From IMG/VR virus record IMGVR_UViG_3300044799_000168, positions 1 through 40,327 of that record: a stretch of DNA of 40,327 nt. One strand, written 5' to 3'. The stretch is from a virus. This document shows, piece by piece, positions 9,144 through 40,327 of this stretch (positions are counted from its first letter, which is position 1; each line of letters begins with the position of its first letter). Under the pieces are notes generated by a model that saw only the letters and a program-made list of their open reading frames with translations, ran no database searches and was not told the origin of the DNA. A program made the translations under genes and the position numbers.

Positions 9144-10075
9144 TATTGTTGCGCCTCCAAAGTTTCGAGTTCAGCGAGTTCGGTTTCTTCGTCTGGCGTT
9201 AAATTGCCGGATACTGATATTGTTGTGCCTTCGGGTGCTTTGAAACCTGATTGTTCAAGGGTCTTGCGCCGAATACCAATTGAACTTCTAATCGCTGTCC
9301 GTAATGATTTTAATCTTGCACTAAATACTGTATCAGGTAAATCTATAGTTGGAACAAGTTTCAAGAGCCGTTTATATTCTTGCTCATTTATTTGAGCGCC
9401 AGACCGAAGTCTTAATAAAGTATCGCCTATATTTTTAACGACTTGTCTAAATTGAGATTCTTTTTCAGTAGCTCCTAAACCAGTAAATTCCTTAAAAGTT
9501 CCCCAATTCCCTTCTAATCGTCCTATAAAAGCTGGGTCAAATAAAGTCTCTATTCGTTGAAGTTCTGAATCAAATTCGTAAAGTTTATTAAGGCTTTCCC
9601 GTTCCCCAGAGGGTGCGGGTTTGCCACCTATCCCTATTTCCACCAAAGGTTGACCGATAAGCAATTTATTGAGAGATGCTTGTTGTTCTTTGGTTCTTTG
9701 ACCTTCTGGTATGGCTTGCAATTTCTTTAGGTATGTCAATTTTTCACCAGCAAGTTGTTGAGTAGGTAGCAATGGTTTCGGTGATACTTGATTTGCCATT
9801 GCCATTTTAAGCAATAACTGTTCAATGCCAGAATCACCACCAGCGGCAAGACCAGTAGGCAATCCCATCTGTTGAGCCAAGACATCAAATTGTTTTCCTC
9901 TTTTCTCCTGCTTCCTTTTCTCCATAATCATCATAATCGCCTTGAATATAGGAGCAAGATTCTCTTCGAGCGAAGGCGTTGTCTTCTGAGACATAGAAGT
10001 AGCTACATTTAATCCGCCGCCACCACCACCGCCAACGGGTATTCTCGGCGTATAAAACGGAACATTTACCGGCAT
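9143..10075 (-). CDS. Internal virion protein
   Basis: The 310-residue protein starts at an ATG behind GGAGAAATAAATT. The N-terminus is low-complexity (PVGGGGGGGLN) and the rest is helical and Gln-rich, with a segment ESLNKLYEFDSELQRIETLFD near 160 and a helical C-terminus with many Glu/Leu. This style and the position between two other candidates match the middle member of a podovirus ejection trio. There is no enzyme motif. Confidence 0.6.
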   Translation of the reverse strand: MPVNVPFYTPRIPVGGGGGGGLNVATSMSQKTTPSLEENLAPIFKAIMMIMEKRKQEKRGKQFDVLAQQMGLPTGLAAGGDSGIEQLLLKMAMANQVSPKPLLPTQQLAGEKLTYLKKLQAIPEGQRTKEQQASLNKLLIGQPLVEIGIGGKPAPSGERESLNKLYEFDSELQRIETLFDPAFIGRLEGNWGTFKEFTGLGATEKESQFRQVVKNIGDTLLRLRSGAQINEQEYKRLLKLVPTIDLPDTVFSARLKSLRTAIRSSIGIRRKTLEQSGFKAPEGTTISVSGNLTPDEETELAELETLEAQQ

Positions 10076-10088
10076 AATTTATTTCTCC

Positions 10089-10988
10089 TTAAACACCTGC
10101 CAACCAAGCATTTTGCATTAGTGCAGCGTTACCCGCTGTTGGGTTAGCCATAAAAGTAGCCATTGGATTAGATACCGTGCCAGCAGCACCACCTCCCAAC
10201 CCTCCCATCAACGCTAACATCAAGCCCATACCCGCTATATTGCCCCAATTCGTTCCCTGCTCCATTGTTCCAGCGGATGTAGATGTGCCAGTCTTGGAAG
10301 CAAGAGCCAAAGCAGTATCGAGCGGTATGCCTAAATCAGATAACTGTCTCAACCATTCCGTATATTTGGCGCTAAGCCCCGCCTGCTCTACTTCTCTTGG
10401 CAAGGCACCGTATTGTTCTGCCGCTGCCACCCGTCCCATCGGAACAAGTTCACCATATTGTGCATAAGACAATGCTTCCGGCACTGCACCTAACCGCCGT
10501 GTTCTTTCATTCTCATAAAGTTGAGCCAGAACAGTTTGCAGATTACCCAAAGCACCTTCCTCAAGCTCGGACGTTTCTTTTATCCGTCCACCGCCGAAGA
10601 ATTTGTCCCTTGCCGATGTGGAAGCAGCCAATCGGTCTTTGGCATCCTGAAGTTCCCGCATAACCTGATTTCGATACGCCTGATAATAAGCACCACCAAT
10701 AGGGTCGTATTCCTCGCCACCCAACGTCTTTTGAAGTTCACTCACACCAGCCTTGTAAAGAGGACTTTCGGTCGAAGGAGCAGAGGCGAGATATTCATCA
10801 AGTGTGGCAAGTCCCGTCTGCTCCTCTTTGCTCAATCCAGCCGTTAGTTCGCCGGTGTATGCCTCGCCCGCCCTCGCCAAACGCTCAGCTGCACCTGGAG
10901 CGGCCGCTTGGTAAAGTTGCTGTCCTTCCGGCCCTAAAGTATATGTGGTCGTTTGTTTTGTAGAACCACCGCCACCGAAGCATCCCAT
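10089..10988 (-). CDS. Internal virion/DNA-transfer protein
   Basis: The 299-residue protein begins MGCFGGGGSTKQTTT, a start style common to phage ejection proteins. It continues as an Ala/Glu-rich helical body and has a glycine/alanine hydrophobic segment near 248-270 (IAGMGLMLALMGGLGGGAAG). It follows the GNAT gene by 2 nt and a GGAGAT site. It is probably the first of the three ejection proteins. The family is judged by composition and order only. Confidence 0.65.
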   Translation of the reverse strand: MGCFGGGGSTKQTTTYTLGPEGQQLYQAAAPGAAERLARAGEAYTGELTAGLSKEEQTGLATLDEYLASAPSTESPLYKAGVSELQKTLGGEEYDPIGGAYYQAYRNQVMRELQDAKDRLAASTSARDKFFGGGRIKETSELEEGALGNLQTVLAQLYENERTRRLGAVPEALSYAQYGELVPMGRVAAAEQYGALPREVEQAGLSAKYTEWLRQLSDLGIPLDTALALASKTGTSTSAGTMEQGTNWGNIAGMGLMLALMGGLGGGAAGTVSNPMATFMANPTAGNAALMQNAWLAGV

Positions 10989-24070: not shown

Positions 24071-26295
24071 TAGTAATAAGGTATCCTGTAATCAGTCCCA
24101 GCTATATTGACAAGTGCCCATCCCGTCGGGTCGCCCAAGAAATTCGTGGCGCTCGAACCGTAATAATTCACTATCGCTACGCCCACACTCGTCGAAGGCG
24201 CAGTCGTTGCGGCGTTCCATCTGTAAGTATTCGAGGTCGTTCCCGCCGTATTAACCGTTCCTGTTACATCACAGGCGTAAGATGGTGCAGTCGTTCCGCC
24301 CATTCGGGTATTGCCAGCAAAAGCGTTATTGCTTCCCCCTCCGGCGTAGATGTCCCAATTAGTATCCCCTCCTGTGCCGGAAAAGTAACCGCCATAGACA
24401 ACAGAAGTTCCTGTGGTAGTTCCTACTCCATAAAACCGGCCACCGTAATAATTAAATGCCACGTCAGAACTTCCGCCGACAAGAGATGGGGCAGAGCCAC
24501 TTGTAGTAAATTCCCCGCCTATTACATTTAGAGTTATCGTCCCCGTGCTGGTGCGATTGATGGCGCTACCAAGAACCGCCGCATAATAAACCCCCCTATC
24601 ATTAAAGGTTAGGTTTCCAGTAGCGGCACTCGAAATCGCCCCTGATTGATTTATATAAGAATAACCGCCGTAAAGATTAGCGGTTGCACTACTGGCGCCG
24701 CTTGTTACATTAACATCACCAGTAACGCTAAGGGTATCTGATACCGCTGCAATTTGTTTAGTAATGCCAAATTGGGTGCGAGTTCCCGAAAAATCGTAAT
24801 CCCAGACAAGTTGCCGCCAAGTCCCGACACCCGAACCTGATGCTGGAAAACCTGTAGTCCCGCTTCCGGTAACCGTCCTCGACAATTTGTTTATGTAACT
24901 GAAACTTGCCGAATAAACTAATGGGTAGGTATCGCCGTCTATAACCAGTCCGTAAGCATCGGCGGCGGCCATAGTATTAAGAAGATAACCCGCCATTGTA
25001 ATATCATCGGTAGAGGTAAGTTGCTCCGCTTGAACTGTTCCTGCGGTTGTAAATCCGCCAGCCGTCAAAGTCGTCCCGTTAAAGGTAAGATTGGCGCTAT
25101 CGACCAGAAGTCCTGCGGTCGAGGCGTAAGGAACTCTTGTTATCGTAAGGCCACTATTGGTTATGTTGGCAAAAGTCGGACTGTTCGTAGTCGCAAGTGA
25201 TTGGTTTATGCCGTCAAGATAACCAAATTCACTGGTGGTGAGTGTGTTTGCGCCAATGGTAAAAGACGTGGCTGTCAATGGAGCATAGACAACTAATTTG
25301 GGTGTGTCAAATTCTCCGTAAATCAAGGGTGTTCCCGTGCTACCGTTTTCTATGTAAAGTTTATTGCTTCCTGTTTCAGTAGAACCCGCTTGATAGCCAA
25401 TAAAAACATTTAAGTTCCCAGTTTGATTAGATAATCCTGCCTCATATCCTATGGCCACATTACCATAGCCTGTTGTATTCGCCGCAAGAGTAGTAGAACC
25501 AACTGCTGTATTTTGATAACCTTCTGTGTTGTTAAAAAGAACACTATCACCAAACGCCAAATTGTCTTCGCCTATAGTATTGTTTTGAAGGACAATATCA
25601 CCAATTCCTATGTTATTATTGCCTGTTGTATTGTTTAGAAGAACCCTTCTGCCTATTGCTACATTGAAACTACCTTCGGTATTAGAAAGTCCTGCTTGAT
25701 AACCCATAAAGAAATTTAGTGTCCCCGTCATTGCGAAATTGCCAGCTTGACCCAAAAGGATATTCTCGCTTCCAGAAACACCTTTTATCGCTAATGCTCT
25801 TAATCCATCGACCCGATAACCCTTCGTCTCGTCTGTGATGTTAGCATCTGCGAAAGTCGGGCTCGAAGTGGTCAAAACTGCCTGATTAAGATAGTTTGCA
25901 AACTGGTAACCATCCCACAGGTCAGCGTTAAGATTGGTATTAACCGTAGTAGATGTTATCGCAAATGGGGAAGTCCCACTTGCCTGCGTGAATGTTCCCC
26001 TTATGAAAGAAGGACTGTCCCCAGATTTATAATATCCAACCGAGGCGTGGTTGCCCCAGCCGTAGGCGGAGTTCCAGTTGCCGTGAGCGTCCACAAGGGC
26101 GAAACAGGGGTCTGATTCTTTGCCTAAATTGGTGTGTTCGGAAGCCGTCAAATGGTAATACTGGCTTGTAGTCCCACCCTGCAAGCCGTCCATCTTATTG
26201 TGCGTCTGCGTGGGTATCGTGGGCGTAACGGGCGGGGCGTAACACAAAACCCCAAAAATCAGCAAAAAAAGAACTACTATCGCTTCCTTGCGCAC
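24070..26295 (-). CDS. Secreted fibre-like protein with YadA-head-type repeats
   Basis: The start is GTG at 26295, inside the end of the upstream gene (19-nt overlap). The 741-residue protein begins with a Sec signal (MRKEAIVVLFLLIFGVLCYA). Residues about 180-320 carry repeats of 14-16 residues (NNTTGNNNIGIG, NNTIGEDNLAFG, NNTEGYQNTAVG, ANTTGYGNVAIG), the left-handed beta-roll pattern of trimeric autotransporter heads and of some phage fibres. The rest is Thr/Gly/Ser beta-rich. No C-terminal S74 chaperone is seen. It is either a virion fibre or an adhesin-like surface protein. Confidence 0.75.
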   Translation of the reverse strand: MRKEAIVVLFLLIFGVLCYAPPVTPTIPTQTHNKMDGLQGGTTSQYYHLTASEHTNLGKESDPCFALVDAHGNWNSAYGWGNHASVGYYKSGDSPSFIRGTFTQASGTSPFAITSTTVNTNLNADLWDGYQFANYLNQAVLTTSSPTFADANITDETKGYRVDGLRALAIKGVSGSENILLGQAGNFAMTGTLNFFMGYQAGLSNTEGSFNVAIGRRVLLNNTTGNNNIGIGDIVLQNNTIGEDNLAFGDSVLFNNTEGYQNTAVGSTTLAANTTGYGNVAIGYEAGLSNQTGNLNVFIGYQAGSTETGSNKLYIENGSTGTPLIYGEFDTPKLVVYAPLTATSFTIGANTLTTSEFGYLDGINQSLATTNSPTFANITNSGLTITRVPYASTAGLLVDSANLTFNGTTLTAGGFTTAGTVQAEQLTSTDDITMAGYLLNTMAAADAYGLVIDGDTYPLVYSASFSYINKLSRTVTGSGTTGFPASGSGVGTWRQLVWDYDFSGTRTQFGITKQIAAVSDTLSVTGDVNVTSGASSATANLYGGYSYINQSGAISSAATGNLTFNDRGVYYAAVLGSAINRTSTGTITLNVIGGEFTTSGSAPSLVGGSSDVAFNYYGGRFYGVGTTTGTSVVYGGYFSGTGGDTNWDIYAGGGSNNAFAGNTRMGGTTAPSYACDVTGTVNTAGTTSNTYRWNAATTAPSTSVGVAIVNYYGSSATNFLGDPTGWALVNIAGTDYRIPYY

Positions 26296-26906
26296 AGCAA
26301 TATCCCCAATCCTAAAATGATAATCGTGGCTGATTCCGGTATCGGCTCGTAGTCAATTCTGATATTGTCCACACTGAACATCACCCCCGACCGAATAAGA
26401 GCGTATCTGGCCTCGTATTCGCTTAAAGTTGTCGTCAGCGCCTTGCCGACATTTGTGAAGTTGTGGGCGACCACCGTTCCATCCGGCGCATAGCAATCCA
26501 CCACAAACGTCCCACCAGTCCATCCTGGTTTTAAGGCCGTGCAGACCCTTATCTGCTCGAATAACCCGTCAACTTCGACAAGCAAATATGGATTTTCGCA
26601 CCAATACTCACCTATCCCAGCAGGTTGGAAAATCGGGTTGCCAATGACATTATTTCCCAATGGTTTGGCCAGAACGGTCGAAGGAGCAACGTAAATGTCA
26701 TCATACAGCCCTTCACCATTTAGCATCTTCTGCCACTGGGATGGGACGCCCAAATTGTAGTAGTCGATACGCCACAAGGTTATATCCGGCAAGGGATAAC
26801 TGAAATTGGCGTAAGGCTCACAAACATCGGACTCGATGGTTACAATCACAGCCTGCGATACGCTCGTTAAGCACAAAACCAAAAGGAATATCAATTTTTT
26901 AGCCAT
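26277..26906 (-). CDS. PEP-CTERM-like exported protein
   Basis: The ATG at 26906 lies inside the terminase gene end; a long upstream frame is only an overlap. The 209-residue product has a Sec signal (MAKKLIFLLVLCLTSVSQA), a beta-rich body with four cysteines, and the C-terminus EPIPESATIIILGLGILLCARKR. That is the tripartite PEP-CTERM pattern: a P-x-P/PES motif, a membrane helix and an RKR cluster, processed by host exosortase. Exosortase substrates lie in the outer envelope. I see no exosortase here, so the host must supply it. This implies an exosortase-bearing Gram-negative host. Confidence 0.8.
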   Translation of the reverse strand: MAKKLIFLLVLCLTSVSQAVIVTIESDVCEPYANFSYPLPDITLWRIDYYNLGVPSQWQKMLNGEGLYDDIYVAPSTVLAKPLGNNVIGNPIFQPAGIGEYWCENPYLLVEVDGLFEQIRVCTALKPGWTGGTFVVDCYAPDGTVVAHNFTNVGKALTTTLSEYEARYALIRSGVMFSVDNIRIDYEPIPESATIIILGLGILLCARKR

Positions 26907-28356
26907 TGAACGCACTCGCAACCTGATAACTATCTGCCACATTTGTCTTCGTATTGTCAAAATAACCACTAAAATCGTCAATCCCTTCCTCCGGCCGAAC
27001 AAATTGAAGACCGTAAATGCCATAGACATAGCACAGTCCCTTGTCCGGTGAGCATCCGATGGCCTTCTTGACATCATCGTTGGCTATCATAAGCATCTTT
27101 CCCGAACCCTGCTGAACCTTGTAACGGCTCAAAGCTATCAACTGCCTGCGAGTCTCCGAATCCTTGACCGGCTCGACCTTGCATTGCCGTATCTGTTGGG
27201 CTGTGTGATAGACCGCTTTGGCCTTCAAATTCGCAAACAAGTTAGAATCGTCAATCTTGCCAGCCGAATTGAAGTATTGGACATAATACTCAGCAGCATC
27301 CTGACTTAAACCATCGGCTACGCCCTTACCAACACCGATACAATCGACAATGAAGTTTTTGGTCTTAATCTCCGTCGCTACCAGTTTGGCCTCCATTACA
27401 ACCTCTGAAGTCATTGTATAATGAACCGCCCGCTCTGTCAAGCATTTTCCGTTCTCGAAACCCTTAATCGAACACACATCGCCCCCGAAAGCAGGGTCAA
27501 TGGCCACAATTCGCCTCTTTTCGTGCTGAACCTTGCGCAAGGCCTCCCAGTTTATCATATTGAGCCTTTCAAGTATGGCGGACGTAATAAGAGTGCGCTC
27601 CTCGTCCGTAACCCGCCTACAGAGCATCTCCTGGTCGTAATCGGACTGCAATAACGTCCCTTCGGCGATTTGCTGCTTCATTTCGAGCAATTTGTTTTGC
27701 GGTATGATTCCAGATTTGTCGGCGGTCAGCCTGCTTGCAAACCAGCCTTCCCTGCACTTTGTCGCCCTGCCCTCAGTTGGCAGTTGCATTACATCCTCTA
27801 CGCAGGCGGCCACATCAAACATCTGCGTTGCGTGATTTGAGCCCTTAGGCGTGTAAAGGAACATAACCCACCTGTCCCGATTCGAGCCTATCCTTCGAGC
27901 ACGTGCCATAATGGGACTCAAAATCTGCGTCCAGACAACGGGGTCGTGCAAACTCCATTCATCACAGACAACACCATCAAAGTCAATGCCTCTAATGGCA
28001 TCGGGGTCATCAGAACCACATATTTTCAGCATAGAACCCGTCTGAAAAGTTATAAGCATCCTCTGCTCATTGACTTCCCAGCCCACCTCCGCCTTGTCCG
28101 GCAACGCACCCCAAAGCATTGTAGGGTCATCCCAGACGATGTTACGTGCCCAAACCTGCGTGGGGGCTATGTAAAGGTATTTTGACAGCTTATTGCGGCA
28201 GGCTTCACATATTAAAAGGTTTATGGCAAGCGTGGTCTTGTATGCCCCCCTGTGCCATTCCTCTATGAAAAGGTTAGCTTCCTGCCTCTCAAAAGCCCCT
28301 AAAACCTCATCTTCGGCAGGCGTAAGGCGGGAAAGAAATTGCTCGTTAGGTATCAT
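26899..28356 (-). CDS. terL: Terminase large subunit
   Basis: The 485-residue protein has the ATPase and nuclease halves of TerL. Walker A is variant, HRGAYKTT near residue 35-42; Walker B is GVVCDEW near 130; a coupling TPKGSNHA motif follows. The RNase H-like nuclease has AIDPAFGGD near 290, IVDCIGVGKGVADGL near 340 and a C-terminal D-x-x-D-S region. It packages DNA with TerS and portal. It overlaps the linker gene (10 nt) at the start and the PEP-CTERM gene (8 nt) at the end. Confidence 0.93.
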   Translation of the reverse strand: MIPNEQFLSRLTPAEDEVLGAFERQEANLFIEEWHRGAYKTTLAINLLICEACRNKLSKYLYIAPTQVWARNIVWDDPTMLWGALPDKAEVGWEVNEQRMLITFQTGSMLKICGSDDPDAIRGIDFDGVVCDEWSLHDPVVWTQILSPIMARARRIGSNRDRWVMFLYTPKGSNHATQMFDVAACVEDVMQLPTEGRATKCREGWFASRLTADKSGIIPQNKLLEMKQQIAEGTLLQSDYDQEMLCRRVTDEERTLITSAILERLNMINWEALRKVQHEKRRIVAIDPAFGGDVCSIKGFENGKCLTERAVHYTMTSEVVMEAKLVATEIKTKNFIVDCIGVGKGVADGLSQDAAEYYVQYFNSAGKIDDSNLFANLKAKAVYHTAQQIRQCKVEPVKDSETRRQLIALSRYKVQQGSGKMLMIANDDVKKAIGCSPDKGLCYVYGIYGLQFVRPEEGIDDFSGYFDNTKTNVADSYQVASAFNG

Positions 28357-31632: not shown

Positions 31633-31656
31633 TAAAACGTGAGAATTGAGGTAAAA

Positions 31657-32265
31657 ATGAAAGACTTGTATAGTAAAATCAGAAATATAAAATCAAACAT
31701 ACCAATTGGACAAGACGGTAATTGGAAGGTTGAGCGATTTGTTGTAGATGAAAAAGGAGCGGCGTTTCACAATCTACGAGAGGCCATAAATGGCCGTGAT
31801 AGAGAAATTGTTACCGGCACTTATACCAAACTTACCTGCAACGGCGAAATCATAATGTCCGACACACCCGCAGAAATCAGCGACCATTTACATTTTATTT
31901 GTCGAGCATCAGGAAATGTTTTGGTCAATGGTTTGGGTTTGGGGTTGGTTGTTGAGGGGTTAATGCTGAACTCGCAGGTTAAGCATATAACGGTGATAGA
32001 AATATCCCCAGAGGTTATTCGTCTTGTTGGTAGGCATCTTGGGAAAAAATACAATGGCAAATTAGAAATAATCAACGCAGACGCTTTCAGTTGGATTCCG
32101 CCTAAAGGTAAAATGATTTATGATTGTGTTTGGCACGATATTTGGCCTAACATTTGTGGGGATTATTACCCCGAAATGAAAAAGTTGCACCGAAAATACG
32201 CCCAGAAAACAAAGTGGCAGGATAGTTGGTGCAAGGAAGAAATTAGATTTAGAGCAAGAATCTAA
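31657..32265 (+). CDS. SAM-dependent methyltransferase, spermidine-synthase-like fold
   Basis: The start at 31657 has GAGGT at 5 nt; a GTG at 31639 is possible. The 202-residue product has GNVLVNGLGLGLVVEGL (glycine-rich SAM loop), ITVIEISPEVIRLVG (acidic residue binding the ribose), LEIINADAFSW and YDCVWHDIWPN. This is the class I fold as in polyamine synthases and many phage methyltransferases. The substrate is unknown. The N-terminal part has a beta-rich cap (EIVTGTYTKLTCNGEIIMSDTPAE). Confidence 0.85.
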   Translation: MKDLYSKIRNIKSNIPIGQDGNWKVERFVVDEKGAAFHNLREAINGRDREIVTGTYTKLTCNGEIIMSDTPAEISDHLHFICRASGNVLVNGLGLGLVVEGLMLNSQVKHITVIEISPEVIRLVGRHLGKKYNGKLEIINADAFSWIPPKGKMIYDCVWHDIWPNICGDYYPEMKKLHRKYAQKTKWQDSWCKEEIRFRARI

Positions 32266-32271
32266 AATGTG

Positions 32272-32288
32272 GTTTTTGAGCCAAAAAC
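32272..32288 (+). ncRNA. Perfect 7-bp hairpin after methyltransferase gene
   Basis: GTTTTTG and CAAAAAC pair around a 3-nt loop directly downstream of the methyltransferase stop; smaller pairs (AATTTT/AAAATT, CGGC/GCCG) follow up to the next ribosome-binding site. It could be a processing or pausing element. Confidence 0.4.
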
Positions 32289-32394
32289 GGCCTTTATAAG
32301 AATTTGCTAAATTTTCAGAAAATTCCGATTTTTCTCTTGATTTAATCCGGCAGTCGAGCCGATAATACTCATAGACGATTTGAAAGGTAAATAA

Positions 32395-32580
32395 ATGCAC
32401 TGCGAAAGTATAATCAAAAAGTTAATCCCAGCAAGGTCAAATCTTGCGCTTTCGCAGTGCGGAAACCTTGCTGGGCTAAACCTGTCCTGCCTGTGGCCAT
32501 CAGATTTTGCCCTCCAATACCGTAACTGGACACTGGAGATAGAATCATACCTGGCTACAGGTGGGATTTTTTATAGGTGA
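32395..32580 (+). CDS. Short hypothetical protein overlapping an RNA pseudoknot
   Basis: The 61-residue frame starts at an ATG with AAAGG upstream and ends 3 nt before the next ATG. The product has no recognisable motif; three cysteines are scattered. Almost the first half is made of two overlapping perfect inverted repeats, so coding could be secondary to structure. The close join to the next gene favours translation. Confidence 0.5.
   Translation: MHCESIIKKLIPARSNLALSQCGNLAGLNLSCLWPSDFALQYRNWTLEIESYLATGGIFYR
32397..32475 (+). ncRNA. Interleaved 12-bp and 11-bp perfect inverted repeats (pseudoknot order)
   Basis: GCACTGCGAAAG (32397-32408) pairs with 32449-32460 over 12 perfect bp. CCCAGCAAGGT (32427-32437) pairs with 32465-32475 over 11 perfect bp. 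The arms alternate (1-2-1'-2'), the order of an H-type pseudoknot. The first arm begins at the G of the start codon, so folding could block translation. Alternatively the repeats are DNA sites for a recombinase. Confidence 0.65.
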
Positions 32581-32583
32581 AAA

Positions 32584-32787
32584 ATGCTAAAAATAGAAAA
32601 TATAGAATCCTTAAATGAAAATTGCTATTATTTGCTCTCGCCAAAACAGGGATTATCCCCTTATCTGTGCGGGTGTTATCAAATTGATTCTGTTAATTGT
32701 AAAACAAAAATGTTTAGTGTCATAGGAATAATAGGCAATTGGAGATTTGATTCCTTTATCACTATTATTGATTTAGAAATAGATTAG
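32584..32787 (+). CDS. Small hypothetical protein
   Basis: The 67-residue protein starts with AGGTG upstream, 3 nt after the previous stop. It is beta-rich with three cysteines in the middle (PYLCGCYQIDSVNC) and has the look of a small OB/SH3-type fold. No family is recognised. It converges on the integrase gene. Confidence 0.65.
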   Translation: MLKIENIESLNENCYYLLSPKQGLSPYLCGCYQIDSVNCKTKMFSVIGIIGNWRFDSFITIIDLEID

Positions 32788-32796
32788 AAAATTCTT

Positions 32797-33633
32797 TTAT
32801 AAGTCCAGAACGTCAGTTGTGCCGGCAAGGTCGGCATCTTGCCAGTGAATGTAAATCATAGCGGTTGTTAAAGGTGAACTATGACCCATAAGTTTGCAAA
32901 TTGTCCCGATTGGACATCCGTTAATATGGAGTTGGTCGGCGAAATAATGACGCAGACTGTGGGGATAGAATGGTTTAATACCAGCAGCTTTGGCTGCTTT
33001 TTGGCATAGTCGCCAAAGCCAGTGGTTGCTTTTGCTCTTTAAAAATTTCATAGTAGGGTCATTTTCGAGGATAGATTTGATGGTTCGGTTAATCGGTATC
33101 GCCCGCCGCTTCCCACCCTTGCCGATAATGGTGATAAATTCACCGTTGAGATTTTCTTTAGTTAAGGCCATAAACTCTGCGGCTCGCAGGCCAGTATTTG
33201 CGAGGAGTTCAATACAGTCCTTTATATGGCCGCTTGTGGCTTTGACAATCTTACGGTACTCTTCTTGGCTTAGGATTCGCTGTCTCGGCGGTGATTTCTT
33301 CAAAGGCTCGACCTTTTTGGCGGCACTGGGAATACCGTGAATGGTTTCGACCCAACTCAAAAAAGACCTGATTGTGAACAGGCGGACGTTTCTGCTCGAT
33401 GCCTTGTAATTTTTTGCCAGGATAAACCGTTCGATAAGCTCACAGTTAATCTGGGTAACTTTACAAGTTTCAGGCAAGGTCGCTAAGAATTGCCGTATTA
33501 CCCCCGCATAGTTCAACCTTGTTTTAGGAGCAAAACGGCTAAGATGCAGCAGAAACCCATTATAAGCGCTCTCGACCGTTAGCATCCTTGCTGCCACCCT
33601 TAATTGTGTAGGCAGCATTATAAGGCGAACCAA
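32797..33633 (-). CDS. Tyrosine recombinase (integrase)
   Basis: The 278-residue protein has an N-terminal SAM-like core-binding domain (FAPKTRLNYAGVIRQFL) and a C-terminal catalytic domain. Conserved residues are visible: Arg in NTGLRAAEFMAL, Lys in GKGGKRRAIPI, HSLRHYFA, GHSSPLTTAMIYIHW. It is XerC/D-like in size. It makes the phage temperate. The start is unclear: TTG at 33633 lies only 1 nt after AGGAGG, while ATG at 33618 lies 16 nt after it. It is transcribed against the early genes. Confidence 0.9.
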   Translation of the reverse strand: MVRLIMLPTQLRVAARMLTVESAYNGFLLHLSRFAPKTRLNYAGVIRQFLATLPETCKVTQINCELIERFILAKNYKASSRNVRLFTIRSFLSWVETIHGIPSAAKKVEPLKKSPPRQRILSQEEYRKIVKATSGHIKDCIELLANTGLRAAEFMALTKENLNGEFITIIGKGGKRRAIPINRTIKSILENDPTMKFLKSKSNHWLWRLCQKAAKAAGIKPFYPHSLRHYFADQLHINGCPIGTICKLMGHSSPLTTAMIYIHWQDADLAGTTDVLDL

Positions 33634-35945: not shown

Positions 35946-36304
35946 AACTTATCGAAATCACAGAGAGTCATAACCGCCTACGAATAACCTGCGTGATTCT
36001 ATTGGTCATCATTGCTTGCAATGAATTGGTCATCATTGCTTGCAATGAAGTTGAACGGCACAAGGCCAGACGACCTATTATGCTACCGAATTACACAGTC
36101 GAAAAGCAAATAAGGAGTTTGCAACGCAGGGTCGGCGCAAAAGAAGATGGTATCGTTGGCTATGAAACTTTGACCAAAATCAATGCCGCAATCACCGCCG
36201 AGCGAAAGAAAGCAGAAATAGAAAAGTCCAGTGAAATGGCAGAACATTATTTTGTAGGTCAGCAAGCGGAATTTGAGAAAGCAAAGAAGGAGTTAGGTAA
36301 ATGA
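35942..36304 (+). CDS. Membrane/lipoprotein-like protein with peptidoglycan-binding domain
   Basis: The 120-residue protein has a hydrophobic N-terminus (RITCVILLVIIAC) with a lipobox-like IIAC, then the same eight residues repeated (LVIIACNE twice) because of a tandem DNA duplication. Residues about 50-80 match a peptidoglycan-binding 1 repeat (VEKQIRSLQRRVGAKEDGIVGYETLTKIN). A charged helical tail follows. It could be a lipoprotein at the cell wall for exclusion of other phages or a spanin-like part; there is no lytic domain. Confidence 0.7.
   Translation: MKLIEITESHNRLRITCVILLVIIACNELVIIACNEVERHKARRPIMLPNYTVEKQIRSLQRRVGAKEDGIVGYETLTKINAAITAERKKAEIEKSSEMAEHYFVGQQAEFEKAKKELGK
36001..36048 (+). 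repeat. 24-bp perfect tandem duplication
   Basis: Bases 36001-36024 are repeated exactly at 36025-36048. The unit contains the palindrome CATTGCTTGCAATG. It is in frame and duplicates eight residues, including the lipobox cysteine. Exact identity suggests a recent event. Confidence 0.95.
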
Positions 36305-40114: not shown

Positions 40115-40327
40115 AAAAGCACGAATTTTATAAACCTGAAGAGTTCAAGAATAACAAAAGAGTGCCTCTGTTTTGGAAATGTCTTTTTTGTGATAAAGAG
40201 TTTCATACTTTAGAAGAAGCAGATAAAGACGAATGTTTATGGAGACAAGAAAAAGAAATAATTAAAAAAGCAATGGACGTTATTGCCGTTCGCAAACAAG
40301 GGCATAGTAGATTGGTATATGATAAAA
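40111..40327 (+). CDS. Hypothetical CxxC protein, 5' part of gene cut by the window ends
   Basis: The ATG lies at 40111 and the frame continues past the window end into base 128 of the left end, as the last 127 bases repeat the first 127. Together it is a 137-residue protein: MKKHEFYKPEEFK, KCLFCDKEF (CxxC), a charged helix, then the part described at 1-324. It overlaps the stop of an 18-codon frame. Confidence 0.85.
   Translation, partial: MKKHEFYKPEEFKNNKRVPLFWKCLFCDKEFHTLEEADKDECLWRQEKEIIKKAMDVIAVRKQGHSRLVYDK
40201..40327. repeat. Right copy of terminal 127-bp overlap
   Basis: The last 127 bases are identical to the first 127. Because the gene at this site is continuous when joined, this is an overlap of a circular assembly. 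Confidence 0.95.

Follow-up and report, generated by a model that had tools for sequence, protein, structure and literature searches.

The alternative stems of trp-type attenuators, nested or mutually exclusive, have nucleotides in common, and in the plasmid repY-repZ system the pseudoknot is a loop-to-loop contact of a few base pairs. We know of no pseudoknot or start codon in the OOP or sib RNAs. OOP of lambda acts on cII mRNA (PMC5869508) and sib acts on int (PMC5300877). STAXI elements, pseudoknots in two to three tandem copies, occur close to genes whose products handle DNA, integrases among them (PMC2864571). In ColIb-P9 (IncI-alpha), a leader frame bearing a Shine-Dalgarno sequence, repY, is translated, and this translation bears on a pseudoknot gating the downstream gene, repZ (Asano and Mizobuchi, 1998, cited in PMC10724649). 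Of the known systems compared here, this one comes nearest in mechanism, joining a pseudoknot to a leader that is translated (cited in PMC10724649).

The window, i.e., the whole 40,327-nucleotide stretch analysed here, carries an exact 127-bp terminal direct repeat (1-127 = 40201-40327) and is therefore a complete phage genome, circular or circularly permuted. An earlier note had described two long, perfect, interleaved inverted repeats in this DNA, the first beginning at the start codon of a 61-codon frame and the pair lying about 320 bp from an integrase gene. Coordinates and description proved correct on each point: A/A' is 12 bp and B/B' 11 bp, arm A starts with the G of the ATG at 32395-32397, and the int stop at 32797 lies 322 bp beyond B'. 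The features of the region are as follows.

31639-32265, plus strand: methyltransferase gene, on the other flank of the repeat pair from the integrase
32337-32366, plus strand: sigma70-like promoter TTGATT-18-GATAAT, ending 30 nt ahead of arm A
32382-32388, plus strand: Shine-Dalgarno-like GAAAGGT (GAAAGG or AAAGGA at the same place in relatives)
32395-32580, plus strand: 61-codon leader frame, starting at arm A and open across all four arms
32397-32408, plus strand: arm A, GCACTGCGAAAG, perfect 12 bp with A'
32427-32437, plus strand: arm B, CCCAGCAAGGT, perfect 11 bp with B'
32441-32447, plus strand: ATCTTGC, local alternative partner of GCAAGGT (32431-32437) within arm B
32449-32460, plus strand: arm A', perfect partner of A
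32465-32475, plus strand: arm B', perfect partner of B
32484-32572, plus strand: second long hairpin with T6, terminator-like, between B' and the next start codon
32584-32787, plus strand: 67-codon ORF downstream of the leader, codon score borderline
32797-33633, minus strand: tyrosine integrase, convergent with the leader (Pfam Phage_integrase, 1.2e-22; PHROG integrase)

The arms thus follow the interleaved order A-B-A'-B', and at the RNA level G-U pairs lengthen arm A to 32396-32409. The low chance of such a pair, also claimed earlier, was borne out: the 40-kb window contained no second interleaved pair of perfect inverted repeats of at least 10 bp, and 150 Markov shuffles of 40 kb yielded pairs of the same class twice, none attaining 11 plus 12 bp. 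Since a ranking by raw stacking energy was dominated by GC-rich coding repeats, we scored interleaved repeats by their composition-corrected log10 chance. The window pair ranked first (-14.3) in 1.67 Mb of phage DNA, where the next unrelated match scored -11.5; the best score in 10 Mb of shuffles was -12.4. Perfect GC-rich inverted repeats also occur in phage early regions, one of 22 bp (L159 12344-12521, within a 315-codon frame) and one of 30 bp (L187 3482-3665); they resemble repeats inside coding frames and were left out of the count.

The RNA fold of 32375-32585 was unusually stable (z -5.1). Nested minimum-energy folds showed one of the two helices at a time, the program being unable to score pseudoknots, and in the nested fold ATCTTGC and GCAAGGT formed a 7-bp hairpin. 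In the window B' has no T's directly after it; the T-run comes instead after the second hairpin (32484-32567), which has a 16-bp outer stem (32484-32499/32552-32567) and is followed by T6 at 32567-32572. Outside this stem, ACCU (32480-32483) is able to pair with AGGU (32575-32578), the Shine-Dalgarno sequence of the next gene. The leader frame stops with TGA 3 nt ahead of the next ATG, and an ending at the next start codon has a chance of ~0.5% here. Its codon usage is unlike that of the genes of this phage, and no known family matched the 67-codon ORF.

Compared with the described systems, the locus resembles trp-type attenuators in its predicted layout of promoter, Shine-Dalgarno sequence, AUG, short frame, alternative structures and terminator, but its stems interleave with no bases in common. 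Whereas repY-repZ serves plasmid replication, the element described here has two interleaved helices of 7-17 bp, with A' beside B' and one helix terminator-like. It also differs from STAXI in being a single interleaved pair per locus, with no Rfam STAXI match. The window gave no match at gathering threshold in Rfam 15, in which pseudoknots are not modelled; under relaxed thresholds the best matches in 32250-32800 were at chance level, and a search of ten element-bearing loci returned tRNAs only.

No DNA-level relatives of the locus were found in phage and plasmid records, and single protein queries (61-aa frame, methyltransferase, integrase, terminase) gave no close relatives in viral contigs. 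A capsid-protein alignment led to 80 phage loci, which were scanned with their full records for interleaved repeats. The 1.67 Mb contained two outliers, the window and its closest relative phage (-14.1; records G001 and G003). The arms of the latter, GACTATCAGGG and GTAGGGCAAAG, have the same architecture and nothing in common with those of the window. An integrase remnant on the other strand has its 3' end ~400 bp away from this element, which directly follows a promoter (TTGACC-17-GATAAT) and has T8 after B'. The short frame around it also terminates at the next start codon (chance 2.3%). In this phage (L099 9839-10069/L098 11735-11965), int is reduced to its C-terminal 77 residues with an in-frame TAG and lies beside tRNA genes; the interleaved element is nevertheless kept. 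Through the integrase we reached a third example, on a Phycisphaerae contig (L167), and a fourth, in a chromosomal integrated element (L181), and a six-sequence integrase alignment led to further phage loci.

Within 600 bp past the int stop, 13 of 28 loci of the integrase family had an interleaved pair scoring -11 or better, a count that includes the near-identical L189 and L190 as well as L205 and L207, whose anatomy is doubtful. Controls gave 0/28 for upstream regions, 0/18 for outgroup integrases and 27/2700 (~1%) for shuffles of the same regions. A clear element was absent from 15 of the 28 loci, including L180, which carries the integrase nearest to that of the window (52-53% identity). 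The elements lie 3-521 bp beyond the int stop codon. Members are mostly planctomycete phages; their arm sequences are unrelated and their architecture is common, with perfect complementarity of 11-17 bp between helix arms and helices of 7-17 bp. That arms without sequence relationship remain complementary, always at one position next to one integrase family, speaks strongly, on comparative grounds, for a functional structure.

Features were counted on the strand opposite int in 11 members (the window, L099, L167, L181, L189, L191, L192, L193, L199, L201 and L206), L205 and L207 being kept out for their poor anatomy (low complexity or long loops) despite good scores. Immediately ahead of arm A, 8 of the 11 had a promoter matching at least 9 of 12 positions, against 12% of random positions. 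In nine, a start codon fell near the beginning of arm A (from 11 nt ahead of it to 3 nt within it), most members also having a Shine-Dalgarno sequence, and the frame was open through B', although the open frame is modest evidence, since 34% of other ATGs in these loci are open equally long. The exceptions to the start-codon rule were L181 and L191; L181 has neither start codon nor Shine-Dalgarno sequence and carries a T-run on the int strand instead. The sequence after B' was T-rich (at least 5 of 10) in 8/11 members, against a background of 16%, and the gap between A' and B' was 0-4 nt in most, the two often directly abutting. Downstream of the element, L189, L193 and L206 have no gene other than int in antisense, so not every member can be the leader of a small gene.

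The earlier note had offered sites for the integrase as one explanation and had asked whether the host junction lies at the repeats. The reading of the repeats as a DNA site for the integrase, whether att core, arm site or accessory recombination site, fits the constant closeness of the element to int and the inverted repeats that recombinase sites typically hold. However, the arms show no consensus among themselves or between phages, and their spacing varies. In the integrated L181, moreover, an 11.4-kb element has a tRNA-Gly gene at one boundary and, at the other, a partial copy of it (42 bp, 95% identity); the tRNA lies 5' of int, whereas the interleaved element lies between these att repeats, ~470 bp 3' of int and ~1.4 kb inside. 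Fragments of tRNA-Gly likewise precede int in L155 and L167. Since the junction repeats of L181 are on the other side of int, we rejected the element as an att site and consider any integrase-site reading highly improbable. A search of 397 Phycisphaerae genomes found neither a host nor an attB for the window phage, giving two chance-level matches outside tRNA genes; its attP was not found, and a tRNA/tmRNA search of the window returned none. The integrative element with its partial tRNA-Gly copy is seen at L181 ~9450-10980 and G335:C33:195928-195969. In L181 a second sequence resembling the int 3' end adjoins the interleaved element, and A' can also pair with downstream AAGGTATCG, which is followed by T6.

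Three members (L167, L206 and L192) could be aligned. Under the pseudoknot structure, 5 of 23 pairs were altered on both sides and 89.9% of cells were paired; with partners slid by 1-3 columns, there were 0-1 double-changed pairs and 27-41% pairing. Covariation among three sequences is supportive, not by itself conclusive, and the wholesale replacement of arms with complementarity kept is the stronger evidence. Relatives in which one arm had changed alone, named earlier as what would refute the proposal, were sought, and the opposite was seen, arms changing in compensation. Extending the helices with Watson-Crick or G-U pairs added 32 pairs, 15 of them G-U, when the leader strand (opposite int) was read, compared with 9 when the int strand was read; the extra G-U pairs favour the leader strand.

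The frame itself could instead be a real, fast-evolving small protein, with the repeats as a by-product. It is open across the element in most members, and in L192 it runs on into a lipoprotein-like frame. Against this stand the codon usage in the window, which is not gene-like, and the leader peptides of L167 and L206, in which changed codon positions (12/11/9, counted by hand) show no third-position excess and hence no coding selection, so the peptide itself seems unimportant. Since perfect complementarity of 11-17 bp would also be left unexplained, we regard this as very unlikely. In L192 the lipoprotein-like sequence (PFILLVLVTIVAGCSS) belongs to an ORF that is located on the strand opposite int and upstream of it; the leader frame continues into this sequence without a frame shift, and the element there would thus encode an unusual N-terminal extension.

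The comparison shows a common architecture, linkage to one integrase family, compensatory arms, a preferred strand, a promoter, Shine-Dalgarno and start-codon anatomy and, in the integrated L181, a position away from the att site. The repeats thus very probably form a structured leader RNA convergent with int. A structured RNA element is well supported in this way, and from its layout we infer a mechanism. Expressed from its own promoter on the strand opposite int, the leader would be transcribed toward the int 3' end, with A/A' and B/B' as the two helices of a pseudoknot in its 5' part. Pairing of A with A' would mask or crowd a start codon equipped with a Shine-Dalgarno sequence, and B:B' would close around A'; since a T-run follows B' in most relatives, B:B' may also be a terminator-like hairpin. 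The proximity of A' and B' (0-4 nt) would let both helices stack on one continuous strand. As A', B and B' are being transcribed, the ribosome, by binding at the AUG, and A', by pairing, would compete for arm A, and the winner would set whether the start codon is open or not and whether the terminator is cleanly formed or knotted. Translation would in this way be coupled to whether transcription carries on into the small gene beyond the leader and into the antisense of int, with antisense action on int as an additional possible role.

We judge the chances of this attenuator, a start-codon-masking pseudoknot leader tying translation to continued transcription, to be about even; in the 11 members it would draw on the promoter (8), start codon (9) and T-run (8), with a downstream gene absent from L189, L193 and L206. 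The translational switch proposed earlier is the better of the two original ideas and is partly supported: arms replaced yet still complementary, with a Shine-Dalgarno sequence and start codon at arm A, speak for it, and the switching itself is our extrapolation from this anatomy.

The element might alternatively be an antiterminator RNA like HK022 put, as leader of an early operon reading through the convergent int. A promoter with a structured RNA at the 5' end would suit this, as would the early-region genes that follow the leader in the window and L099. However, put RNAs are two adjacent nested hairpins acting on RNA polymerase by modifying it, whereas the helices here interleave and one is terminator-like, and L189, L193 and L206 have no early gene directly downstream; we find a put-like role unlikely.

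A small antisense or retroregulatory RNA that limits int, complementary to the 3' untranslated part of its mRNA, is a serious rival to the attenuator, and since downstream sequence in L189, L193 and L206 is antisense int, such an effect could be the common denominator. Its linkage to the 3' end of int is tight, at 3-16 bp in these three loci and at most 521 bp elsewhere; it runs convergent to int and has a promoter of its own and in many cases a terminator. Precedents are OOP on cII mRNA (PMC5869508) and sib on int (PMC5300877), where the 3' end of a lysogeny gene likewise meets a small convergent RNA or carries a structured tail. An OOP-like RNA would overlap its target mRNA and lower it through RNase III; what the loci show of this is convergent orientation and proximity. 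Yet such action needs no pseudoknot, Shine-Dalgarno sequence or start codon, and the conserved parts here are on the leader strand; OOP and sib are functional analogies only. In a variant, the folded int mRNA tail would itself be the target of an RNase; a sib-type hairpin of this kind should give the int strand the better helices, yet the G-U pairs favour the other strand. Antisense or retroregulatory action as the whole explanation is possible but, in our estimate, doubtful.

More tentatively, the start-codon-masking leader may represent an undescribed class of RNA tied to one tyrosine-integrase clade, in which an AUG-masking pseudoknot with contiguous A' and B' would act as a translation-sensing switch on antisense int transcription and hence on integration. 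Expression, folding into a real pseudoknot, the switch and an effect on int would all be part of this proposal. The element looks previously unlisted when compared with part of the open-access literature, and lies beside int in about 11 related, mostly planctomycete phages and elements. The element would add a new family to the structured RNAs of phages, from a phylum that has been little studied, and one that standard covariance models miss on account of its pseudoknot; it suggests control of lysogeny genes at the RNA level, distinct from both sib and OOP. Scanning the flanks of a gene family for interleaved repeats finds elements of this kind even where their sequences are not alike.

The window (26277-27077, minus strand; ESATIIILGLGILLCARKR) and L155 (2648-3229, plus strand; EPATILLLTLMMVCLRRLHI) encode secreted proteins whose C-terminus is PEP-CTERM-like; together with the Phycisphaerae origin of L167, they fit hosts in the Planctomycetota. 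Elsewhere in the window, at 36001-36048, 24 bp are exactly duplicated in tandem within a small ORF.
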